A stretch of DNA of 64,000 bases. Source: Tragulus kanchil. Its lineage: Eukaryota > Chordata > Mammalia > Artiodactyla > Tragulidae. This document shows, piece by piece, positions 560 to 64,000 of the stretch (position 1 is its first letter; each line of letters opens with the position of its first letter). The translations under genes and the position numbers were made by a program. The notes below the pieces were generated by a model. It did not search any database and was not told the origin of the DNA. It saw only the letters and a program-made list of their open reading frames with translations. Where the stretch lies: positions 201,290,400 to 201,354,399 of the forward strand of contig JAIOJX010000026.1 of the NCBI GenBank assembly GCA_022376925.1, in the 5' to 3' direction.

Positions 560-2766
560 TTTGCACTCAAGAAAATCCCGACTAATATCATCCAGAAAAA
601 AAAAAGCCCTCAAAGGCTAAAGCCCCTCTCCATGGGAAGCAGCAGTTACTGAAAGCTTTGTACATAGTTTCGGGCATTCACAGTCACAGTCATGAATTCT
701 TTATGGCTTAGCCCTACCTGTGATTAGCATCAGTTGCGCGCCTCTGAGTTTATGAAGGTCAAATGCTCACAGGTTGTTTATTACTTCTCCTGGCAATAGT
801 GCTTGCTTTGCTGGGTGATCCTTTAGACATGTGTAAGAAAAACAGAAACTAGGACTCCTATTTGGATTTTTCCCCAAATAAACACATATACAAATATAGA
901 AATCACAACTTATGAAGTCAATCAATAAGGAAGCAAAAAAAAAAAAAAAGTACATGCCAGGTAGAGCACCCACCCGTAGCTGTGCAAATGTCCCCATGAA
1001 CAGAGAATTCATAAAAACAAGTGGGCAGAACAGAGAAAGATGATGTCATTGAACTATTGTCTTATCCTGAATATTACTTAAGTGATTGTAGTACTTCTCT
1101 GGTTAGGATAAGAAATGTCTAGGTTCTAATCTGGCAACATACATATCTGTAAACAACAAAACTCTGTAAAAGTTGAAAGTAAAATAAAAGTTAAAAAAAA
1201 ATGTCTAGGTTGTTGCAGGATCAATGGAATTGTAACTTAGGCTCTACAATTCACTTATCTGATTCTGTGTATTTTTATCAGTTCTGTGTTCAAGTGAAAA
1301 AAAATTCCCATCAAGGCTGTTGGGCAAGCTCCTGTCTTGTCTTTGGCCTGCACCTCTCGGCAGCCCTGTTCCCATGCCTCACATAGTACGTTGTGTCAGG
1401 AAGGTTAAGTAGCCAGACATTCTCAGGTCCATAGTGGTAGCACCTTGTACAAACCCACTTTGTTTTTTTTTAGTCCTGGAGTTGTGCTCAGCTGTACCTC
1501 ATACTCTTTTCTCTGAGCCTTCTGAGGTGCACCTTTGTCACAGGAGCCCCTCTGGGTGTGGACTTCAGATCTACCAGAAGGTGGGTCTGTGAGGGGTACC
1601 CTTTGGACATTTGCCTTGAAATCCTTCATCTTACAGAGAACCCTTTGGACTTGACTCTGTTAAAAAAGGGGGGGGGGGGGGAGCCTCAGTTTGCACTCAA
1701 GAAAATCCCGACTAATATCATCCAGAAAAAGCCCTCAAAGGCTAAAGCCCCTCTCCATGGGAAGCAGCAGTTACTGAAAGCTTTGTACATAGTTTCGGGC
1801 ATTCACAGTCACAGTCATGAATTCTTTATGGCTTAGCCCTACCTGTGATTAGCATCAGTTCGCGCCTCTGAGTTTATGAAGGTCAAATGCTCACAGGTTG
1901 TTTATTACTTCTCCTGGCAATAGTGCTTGCTTTGCTGGGTGATCCTTTAGACATGTGTAAGAAAAACAGAAACTAGGACTCCTATTTGGATTTTTCCCCA
2001 AATAAACACATATACAAATATAGAAATCACAACTTATGAAGTCAATCAATAAGGAAGCAAAAAAAAAAAAAAAGTACATGCCAGGTAGAGCACCCACCCG
2101 TAGCTGTGCAAATGTCCCCATGAACAGAGAATTCATAAAAACAAGTGGGCAGAACAGAGAAAGATGATGTCATTGAACTATTGTCTTATCCTGAATATTA
2201 CTTAAGTGATTGTAGTACTTCTCTGGTTAGGATAAGAAATGTCTAGGTTCTAATCTGGCAACATACATATCTGTAAACAACAAAACTCTGTAAAAGTTGA
2301 AAGTAAAATAAAAGTTAAAAAAAAATGTCTAGGTTGTTGCAGGATCAATGGAATTGTAACTTAGGCTCTACAATTCACTTATCTGATTCTGTGTATTTTT
2401 ATCAGTTCTGTGTTCAAGTGAAAAAAAATTCCCATCAAGGCTGTTGGGCAAGCTCCTGTCTTGTCTTTGGCCTGCACCTCTCGGCAGCCCTGTTCCCATG
2501 CCTCACATAGTACGTTGTGTCAGGAAGGTTAAGTAGCCAGACATTCTCAGGTCCATAGTGGTAGCACCTTGTACAAACCCACTTTGTTTTTTTTTAGTCC
2601 TGGAGTTGTGCTCAGCTGTACCTCATACTCTTTTCTCTGAGCCTTCTGAGGTGCACCTTTGTCACAGGAGCCCCTCTGGGTGTGGACTTCAGATCTACCA
2701 GAAGGTGGGTCTGTGAGGGGTACCCTTTGGACATTTGCCTTGAAATCCCTTCATCTTACAGAGAAC
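560..2766. repeat. Direct duplication 1 (copies 560-1641 and 1690-2766)
   Basis: Two near-identical ~1.08 kb copies. The linker 1642-1689 holds a fragment (CTTGACTCTGTTAA) that also occurs at about 2802, followed by a run of ~14 G. Copies differ mainly in A-run and C-run length (for example extra A near 600). Apart from a short L1-like tail at about 1100-1200 the unit has no recognisable gene. Confidence 0.95.
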
Positions 2767-3043
2767 ACTCAAGAATGTTCTAGGATCCTTTTGCCCTAGT
2801 TCCTTGACTCTGTTAAGCAGAGCCAGGCAGGACAGGGAGCCAGGAGGGGACAAAGGAGTTCTTCATACCTGGCAGAATCTTCACTCTAAGATGCTAGTAT
2901 CTTCTATGGTTGTAGCTAGATGTCCTCACATTGTTCTCTGACAAAAGTTGCGTAAATTTGACGGACTTGGGAAACTTTATTTGCCTCCAATGCTGTTATC
3001 TTCTGCTTTGTGAAAACCCATCTTTGGAGCAGGGGAAGGGTAA

Positions 3044-3256
3044 ACTGGTGGAGCTAGTGGTAAAGAACTCACCTGCCAATGAAGGAGACAAAAAGAGATG
3101 CAGGTTTGATCCCTGGGTCGGAAGATCCCCCGGAGGAGGAAATGGCAGTTCCCTCCGGTATTCTTGCCTGAAGAATCCCATGGACAGAGGATCCTGTAGG
3201 GCTGTGGTCCATGGGGTCAAACAGAGTTGGACATGACTGAAGTGACTCAGCACATA
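3044..3256 (+). mobile_element. Bov-tA/Bov-A type SINE
   Basis: Ruminant SINE recognised by TGGTAAAGAA, GATCCCTGGGT, TATTCTTGCCTG, TCCATGGGGTC and GTTGGACATGACTGA in order. Diverged at the 5' end. Confidence 0.85.
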
Positions 3257-3449
3257 TGCATGAACTGGCTGAAAGCAGCCTAAAGGTACAAGCTCCCAGT
3301 TAGAAGATAAATAAGTACTAGGGATGTCACGTACCACATACTAAATATTGCAACATGCTGTATATGACGTGTGAAAATTGTTAGGAGAGTGAATTCTAAG
3401 AGTTCTTATGATAAGGAAAGAACATTTTTTTCTTTTTCGCTTTATTTTA

Positions 3450-3600
3450 TATTTATGTGAGATGATGGATGTTCCCTGTCATTGAGGTCATCATTTCCTG
3501 ACATATAGAAGTCAGATCTCTATATTGTACACCTTTAACTTACACAGTACTGTGTGTCAATCACATCTCAATAAAACTAAAAGGGTACAAGAAAAAAGCT
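3450..3600 (+). mobile_element. L1 3' end fragment
   Basis: Typical L1 tail words in order: GAGATGATGGATG, TTGTACACCTTTAAC, CACATCTCAATAAAACTAAA. Repeated at 4556-4706 by duplication 2. Confidence 0.6.
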
Positions 3601-61968: not shown

Positions 61969-62815
61969 ATATATTTCTGTGAATTACTATGACTTTTAAA
62001 GAGTACAGCAGCTCTTAGGATAGTTCATTCATCTGAGACTTTTTAGGAAAGTCTGTAGTCAAATACATTGAACAGATAAGAATAGAAATGACTTAGGAAT
62101 ATGTTTTGCATAGAATTTGCTTATGAGCTTTGAATTCCTGGATGAATTTCTCCATTCATTACTGTCAATTTTAAGATTCAAATCTCTTGATTTTTTCTCT
62201 TTTATTCTTCTTATCCTGTTATGAAGATTTCTTTCCGTAAATATAAATATCAAGAAATGAAGAAAGAATCACACGGATTCAAAGGTGGATAAAAGATCCA
62301 GATGTCAATCACAAAACTGCTCTTGATTTCCAGCAAGAAGGTAAACACTTACCAAGTGAATACATTAAGACCTTTCTGCTAATCACTACCAGAGTTGAAC
62401 TGTTAAATTTCAGTGTTGAACTATTTTCCATTTAAATGTAATATTACATTCACTTTTTATTTTGACAGAGAAAAGTATTAGATACAACTGCACCTCCATG
62501 GCCCCATTCTTCTTCAGCAACACCTTGTTAAGTAAGCTTCTGTTTGAAAGGTAACTTTAAATTAGATTCAAAGAGGCAAGTTAGAACCAAGCAACTTGGA
62601 TTCTAGTCTGTACAATCTCTATGAACAGAGTAACTCCAGAGAAATCACTAAACATCTGAATTCCTATCAGGGATAACAATACCTACCCCTCTTGACCAAT
62701 TGTGATCATGTTTGTGAGCACTGCGAAGTATGCACCTGCACGTATCATTATTATCTAGAGCTATTAAGAAAATAACCGTCTCTCTTATTAAACTGAATTC
62801 TCAGGAATGGCTTAC

Positions 62816-63050
62816 GTTTTGTGCTTCAGAAATGTGGTAATAGGAATAGTCACTGTTAACCGAAGGCTGGCCAGTCGGAGGGAGTTGAGCTGAGGGTGGA
62901 GCATGTGCAAAACCCATCAAATGGCTGTTCTTCTGAAAACTTGTGGTCACGGGTGGCTGGCTGACTTTAGAAGACTCCTGCAGATAACCTTCCTGCTCAA
63001 CCTTACGACGCATTGTAGAATTCCAGTGGTTCTTGATAGCATTATCAGTT
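62816..63050 (-). CDS. MYB: MYB exon 6: end of Myb repeat 3 and start of linker
   Basis: 235 nt: one base completing an Arg codon split with exon 5 (AG|A), then 78 codons. The first ~20 residues, with [16 protein letters not shown], are the DNA-recognition helix and end of the third Myb repeat; in the c-Myb family the Asn and Lys residues of this helix contact the AAC core of the site. The remainder is the Ser/Pro/Gln-rich linker ending at HISEAQN. Acceptor is TGTGCAG before 63050, donor GTAAGC after 62816. The last half of the exon is repeated at the right edge of the window in a frameshifted copy. Confidence 0.97.
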
Positions 63051-63895
63051 CTGCACAGAAATATATCACATATGCATTTTACAAACAAAAATTTCAATTG
63101 AGATTATAGTTAACTGACAGAAAACTGTTTCTAATAGAGACCATTCTTTTGGTTCACTACTGGTGCTTTTTTCTTTTAGTTTCTGTCTTCTCTGCCTCCT
63201 AAGATTCATGCTTCCTCTATTACCTAACTAAAATCCATAGATTTCTCCAAATTACATAATATGGAAATTACATTTGTTCTCTACAAAATTTTATCCTGTT
63301 ATGAAGATTTCTTTCCGTAAATATAAATATCAAGAAATGAAGAAAGAATCACACGGATTCAAAGGTGGATAAAAGATCCAGATGTCAATCACAAAACTGC
63401 TCTTGATTTCCAGCAAGAAGGTAAACACTTACCAAGTGAATACATTAAGACCTTTCTGCTAATCACTACCAGAGTTGAACTGTTAAATTTCAGTGTTGAA
63501 CTATTTTCCATTTAAGTGTAATATTACATTCACTTTTTATTTTGACAGAGAAAAGTATTAGATACAACTGCACCTCCATGGCCCCATTCTTCTTCAGCAA
63601 CACCTTGTTAAGTAAGCTTCTGTTTGAAAGGTAACTTTAAATTAGATTCAAAGAGGCAAGTTAGAACCAAGCAACTTGGATTCTAGTCTGTACAATCTCT
63701 ATGAACAGAGTAACTCCAGAGAAATCACTAAACATCTGAATTCCTATCAGGGATAACAATACCTACCCCTCTTGACCAATTGTGATCATGTTTGTGAGCA
63801 CTGCGAAGTATGCACCTGCACGTATCATTATTATCTAGAGCTATTAAGAAAATAACCGTCTCTCTTATTAAACTGAATTCTCAGGAATGGCTTAC

Positions 63896-64000
63896 GTTTT
63901 GTGCTTCAGAAATGTGGTAATAGGAATAGTCACTTTTAAACCCGAAGGCTGGCCAGTCGGAGGGAGTTGAGCTGAGGGTGGAGCATGTGCAAAACCCATC
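63896..64000 (-). pseudogene. MYB: Second partial copy of MYB exon 6, frameshifted
   Basis: Lies in the right copy of duplication 17 and repeats the 3' part of exon 6, with the same donor site just below 63896; it runs off the window edge. Compared with the intact exon at 62816-63050 it has a two-base insertion and a substitution around 63934-63943, where the homopolymers read longer. This shifts the frame, so the Tyr-rich end of the exon is not encoded. For the minus-strand gene it would lie 5' of the intact exon 6. Most likely an assembly artefact with sequencing errors, not a real exon. Confidence 0.85.

Follow-up and report, generated by a model that had tools for sequence, protein, structure and literature searches.

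Near-constant 1.1-kb direct duplications in every sampled part of a Tragulus kanchil genome assembly are almost certainly an assembly artefact

Results

We analysed a 64,000-nucleotide stretch of the Tragulus kanchil genome assembly GCA_022376925.1 (contig JAIOJX010000026.1, positions 201,290,400 to 201,354,399), hereafter the window. It carries a c-MYB exon and 17 direct tandem duplications of about 1.1 kb, 16 of which are complete while one is cut by the window end. Self-BLAST of the window returned 25 direct matches: the 17 duplications, with a shift between copies of about 1.1 kb, four secondary matches at about 2.2 kb, found where adjacent blocks overlap, and four far-apart repeats with 81-86% identity. 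In the 16 complete pairs, the blocks were 1026-1118 bases long (mean 1088, standard deviation [SD] 25) and the shift was 1073-1133 bases. These values agree with an earlier note on this DNA, which had listed seventeen direct duplications with copies 1.07-1.13 kb apart.

The c-MYB exon belongs to the final duplicated block. A minus-strand open reading frame (ORF; 62801-63097) matched mouse c-Myb repeat 3 (1idy, E 2.8e-6), and seven distinct PDB sequences were matched in all. Three window ORFs were scanned against Pfam, with no family hit. The first copy of the exon is in frame, and the second, which lies partly beyond the window, loses the frame within the exon. A false copy of this kind would thus spoil gene models too.

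The first ten pairs tile 560-22225, consistent with the consecutive tiling described earlier for 0.5-22.2 kb, and adjacent blocks there are 77 or 68 bases apart or overlap by 4 to 137 bases. Each pair runs from the start of its first copy (A) to the end of its second (B), and identities and shifts are those of self-BLAST. Pair 1 (A 560-1644, B 1690-2769; 99.3%, shift 1130) has a spacer of 45 bases. Pair 2 (A 2847-3947, B 3967-5053; 98.1%, shift 1120) is missing bases near the start of B, and pair 4 (A 7219-8278, B 8320-9383; 99.6%, shift 1101) is missing bases near the end of A. Identity was 100% in both pair 3 (A 5050-6152, B 6153-7255; shift 1103) and pair 6 (A 11572-12660, B 12670-13758; shift 1098), and 99.9% in pair 5 (A 9452-10522, B 10525-11595; shift 1073). 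The tiled region is completed by pair 7 (A 13669-14779, B 14792-15902; 99.2%, shift 1123), pair 8 (A 15890-16977, B 16995-18082; 99.4%, shift 1105), pair 9 (A 17972-19061, B 19056-20134; 99.0%, shift 1084), and pair 10 (A 19998-21113, B 21116-22225; 99.3%, shift 1118).

Further along the window come pair 11 (A 32706-33811, B 33823-34928; 99.7%, shift 1117), pair 12 (A 36901-38004, B 38034-39141; 99.6%, shift 1133), pair 13 (A 39140-40194, B 40221-41283; 99.0%, shift 1081), and pair 14 (A 41191-42308, B 42317-43433; 99.3%, shift 1126). In both copies of block 14, a 43-base unit is perfectly repeated in tandem (2.9 copies), at 41359-41484 and 42484-42609. Pair 15 (A 45526-46551, B 46608-47637; 99.5%, shift 1082) has a 56-base spacer, whose final 19 bases are an exact copy of a stretch just upstream of A. 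It is followed by pair 16 (A 48623-49706, B 49719-50802; 99.5%, shift 1096) and by the truncated pair 17 (62211-64000 in the window; 99.4%, shift 1080), in which A starts at 62211 and B starts at 63291, runs past the window end and continues into the fetched sequence beyond it.

Collapsing the duplicates left 45,230 bases, in line with the ~45.2 kb of true sequence previously estimated. On the collapsed sequence, restarts fell at 560, 1717, 2800, 3866, 4998, 6045, 7044, 8142, and 9119, then at 10061, 21651, 24729, 25835, 26805, 30014, 32029, and 44521. The restarts that had been placed by hand were within 10 bases of these positions in 14 of 17 cases, the last three being off by 57, 35, and 38 bases.

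Whether the same kind of duplication occurs elsewhere in the assembly (3,167,203,957 bases in 32 contigs) was evaluated on nineteen 10-kb pieces, which came from 13 contigs and whose sites were picked as round numbers. Sixteen contigs longer than 70 Mb carry about 3.15 Gb of this assembly, a layout that suggests few but large chromosomes. Adding the window and the 20 kb that follow it (the 84-kb window stretch) brought the total analysed to 274 kb. All 19 pieces contained the same kind of duplication. With a minimum of 200 bases and 92% identity, 93 self-matches were obtained within pieces, 81 with shifts of 900-1400 bases and 12 derived ones with shifts of 1800-2800, and no other shift was seen within any piece. 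Once pairs split by BLAST were merged, there were 79 blocks, 63 of them complete, with shifts of 975-1209. Complete copies were 96.3-100% identical, and six of the 63 pairs were at 100%. Duplicated blocks occurred at an average density of 0.29 per kb, and none of the 19 pieces was free of them. At L017 (1717-7547) and L026 (1638-7650), adjacent duplicated blocks overlapped by up to 441 bases, as compared with at most 137 in the window.

In the 19 pieces, the share of false second copies was 29.5% (bootstrap 26.1-32.9%), ranging from 14.4 to 43.7% between pieces; in the window stretch, it was 29.4%. Deflating the assembly by this share implied an unduplicated genome of 2.13-2.34 Gb. A 2-kb probe from the window gave a similar picture: among the 39 off-window matches listed (best 40 of 4148 candidates), 20 formed 10 pairs, with shifts of 1081-1161 as read from the match table. 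Likewise, 85 of the best 150 of 439 candidate homeodomain matches formed 44 pairs 950-1250 bases apart, and these presumably include HOX clusters. The fault is therefore present in every sampled part of the assembly, and it doubles exons.

We then looked at the differences between copies in the 63 pairs counted as complete before this merging, two of which are shorter pieces of pairs split by BLAST. In total, 197 of 295 differences lay within 100 bases of a copy end, where a share of 18% was expected. These differences were also polarized. In the first 200 bases, 57 of 63 insertions/deletions (indels) were losses in B, and in the last 200 bases, 56 of 72 were losses in A (Fisher p 1.6e-16). 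Counting polarity once per pair end over all pieces, 49 ends agreed, 9 disagreed, and 2 were tied. The trend was visible in the 16 complete pairs of the window, with losses in B accounting for 16 of 22 first-half indels and losses in A for 12 of 13 second-half ones (p 3e-4). It was also found in the 19 other pieces, where B had lost bases in 41 of 42 indels of the first 200 bases and A in 37 of 51 of the last 200 (Fisher 4.9e-13). Taken together, end crowding and polarity, with B short at its start and A short at its end, point to overlapping consensus units that were called separately, had poor ends, and were joined untrimmed. Spacers between copies were examined as well, leaving out split pairs and spacers with N (n = 28). 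They resembled their own flanks, ranking in the top tenth for the sequence before A in 10 of 28 cases and for the sequence after B in 7 of 28, with 2.8 expected for each (11 and 8 of 30 when the spacers left out were included). Frayed unit ends would be expected to behave in this way.

The end polarity bears on two explanations of another kind. One is false haplotypic duplication, whereby both alleles of heterozygous stretches would have been kept side by side. The 96.3-100% identity of complete copies would suit it, but the block length is nearly constant at ~1.1 kb in all pieces, six of the 63 pairs are 100% identical, and the differences crowd with polarity at copy ends instead of spreading evenly as between alleles. 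We regard it as very improbable. The other is that the duplications are real, produced by a replication or repair mechanism whose reach is fixed at 1.1 kb. The sequence stands as deposited, and its letters alone forbid no single event of this sort. However, a process of this kind would have had to act at the density given above and in each of the 19 pieces, to double homeodomain matches at many places, and to leave losses polarized at copy ends; the chance that it did so seems to us slighter still. Both explanations were rejected on polarity and density.

As to the spacing of the duplications, the earlier note had proposed a fixed grid of ~1.04 kb, taken as a computational window step, with gaps close to whole multiples of it. 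In the window, the 11 single steps averaged 1052 bases (SD 71), and the five longer gaps were 11.01, 2.92, 3.05, 1.91, and 11.87 times this value (p ~0.001 against uniform residues), close to the multiples given in the note. Steps of 940-1160 bases made up 11 of the 16 observed, and random starts gave at most 6 in 20,000 trials. The grid persisted over the 84 kb of the window stretch (8 gaps >1500 bases, R 0.92, p 0.004, period free).

Elsewhere, the grid was not recovered. For the analysis of steps, units, and periods, split pairs were merged and seven steps following a block cut by a piece start were dropped. No period was detected in the 19 other pieces, either from 16 gaps >1500 bases (R 0.16, p 0.67) or from all 30 usable steps (p 0.09, period free), and the idea that the whole genome follows a strict 1.05-kb grid was rejected. 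Steps in these pieces averaged 819 bases (SD 179, range 555-1206, n = 14), as compared with 1043 (SD 88, n = 14) in the window stretch. No 256-base quantization of adjacent steps was seen by eye, a judgment made without a statistic; the overlap between neighbouring blocks was at most 256 bases in 17 of 24 cases and larger in the others. Thus, the duplications are general, whereas the near-fixed ~1.05-kb grid is local to the window stretch.

The overlap was far more regular than the step. Over the 63 complete blocks, the shift had a mean of 1111 bases (SD 40, coefficient of variation [CV] 3.6%), and the step between adjacent blocks had a mean of 931 (CV 19%, range 555-1206, n = 28). Units delimited by two failed joins measured 1728-2285 bases (n = 24). 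It is the overlap that stays fixed, and not the step. This has consequences for the specific form in which the artefact was originally proposed, namely, that another program called the consensus, or polished it, in chunks at a fixed step and left overlaps untrimmed. The near-regular grid of the window and the next 20 kb speaks for such a step, while the lack of a period in the 19 other pieces, the wide range of their steps, and the greater constancy of the overlap speak against it. We consider this form unlikely, albeit less so than the two explanations rejected above.

Discussion

The 1.1-kb duplications are, almost certainly, an assembly artefact and not biology. The general proposal of the earlier note, a computational artefact made of untrimmed consensus overlaps, is strongly supported by the presence of the pattern in 19 of 19 pieces and by the end-polarized differences between copies. 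As to its cause, the best supported is a failure of merging in an assembler of the wtdbg/wtdbg2 (Redbean) type, and we think it quite probable that such a program, inferred here from the pattern it left, was at work.

A long-read assembler of this type would split reads into nodes of ~1024 bases. Its consensus units are pairs of neighbouring nodes, and calling the consensus for each pair would give adjacent ~2.0-kb units that share one ~1.1-kb node. In the normal course, units would be merged by aligning the shared node. Should the merge fail, the two consensus sequences would be written in succession and the shared node would appear twice, copy A as the closing part of one unit and copy B as the opening part of the unit after it. 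If consensus is poorest at unit ends, damage would be expected in the final bases of A and in the first bases of B. The merge step is apparently what failed. A constant overlap with variable spacing is expected from a graph of fixed-length nodes, and it fits a wtdbg-type program with 1024-base nodes better than a fixed step. Both expectations are borne out by the data, in that block length is node-like and nearly constant, and units of about two nodes are variably spaced.

Several observations do not sit easily with a wtdbg-type merge failure. The mean shift of 1111 bases exceeds 1024. For 7 of 24 pairs of neighbouring blocks, the overlap exceeds 256 bases, the default maximum node overlap of wtdbg2. 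Of the 51 indels found in the 19 pieces within the last 200 bases, 14 had a polarity opposite to that expected. Steps in the window stretch are rather regular (CV 8.4%, n = 14), as a fixed step would predict. SINE-like pieces in the sequence suggest a ruminant, and ruminant genomes measure 2.6-2.7 Gb, which is above the deflated size obtained here. Furthermore, published assemblies made with wtdbg2 are not inflated: the sections consulted give an average of 2.81 Gb for human assemblies in the Shasta benchmark (PMC7483855), and 2.38 Gb for leopard assemblies, near the values of two other assemblers (PMC9713438). A faulty version, setting, or data set would therefore be needed. On balance, we lean towards a consensus failure of node-based long-read assembly, absent from the literature consulted, that doubled some 0.7-0.9 million 1.1-kb blocks of this chromosome-scale assembly (as extrapolated from 274 kb), so that about 0.8-1.0 Gb of it would be false and very many exons doubled.

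The pattern has no biological meaning, and it misleads gene counts, exon structure, copy number, segmental duplication, and genome size when these are taken from the present assembly, about three in ten sampled bases lying in a false second copy. Its interest as biology is low, and modest as a warning on a public assembly. Constant overlap together with end-polarized losses nevertheless forms a signature that needs no reads, and could serve to screen other assemblies for the same fault.

How does this fault compare with known systems? Redbean/wtdbg2 calls a node-and-edge consensus on a fuzzy de Bruijn graph. The vertices of this graph are described as 1024-bp segments in the relevant passage of PMC7730629; the present duplicated block measures ~1.1 kb and the unit ~2 kb. 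The consensus of contigs supplied as overlapping read sequences is called by a separate program, wtpoa-cns, according to an excerpt of PMC12037172. The differences are that the published wtdbg2 assemblies consulted are uninflated, and that the excerpts at hand do not describe a merge failure on the present scale. The literature searched, represented largely by excerpts, yielded no description of the present fault; the phrase "false tandem duplication" appeared there in a single paper, which deals with the joining of X and Y copies of genes in Cannabis. In other long-read assemblies, extra near-identical copies likewise inflate the assembly, and the portion of PMC9668749 consulted puts false duplications, estimated from k-mer counts, at 0.3-2.3% for most of the human assemblies it covers. 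Here, in contrast, they reach ~29.5%, with near-constant size, adjacent copies, and end-polarized differences. Finally, as in tandem segmental duplication, the copies are direct, adjacent, and near-identical, but here every piece is affected, the size is uniform, and the copy ends carry independent errors.

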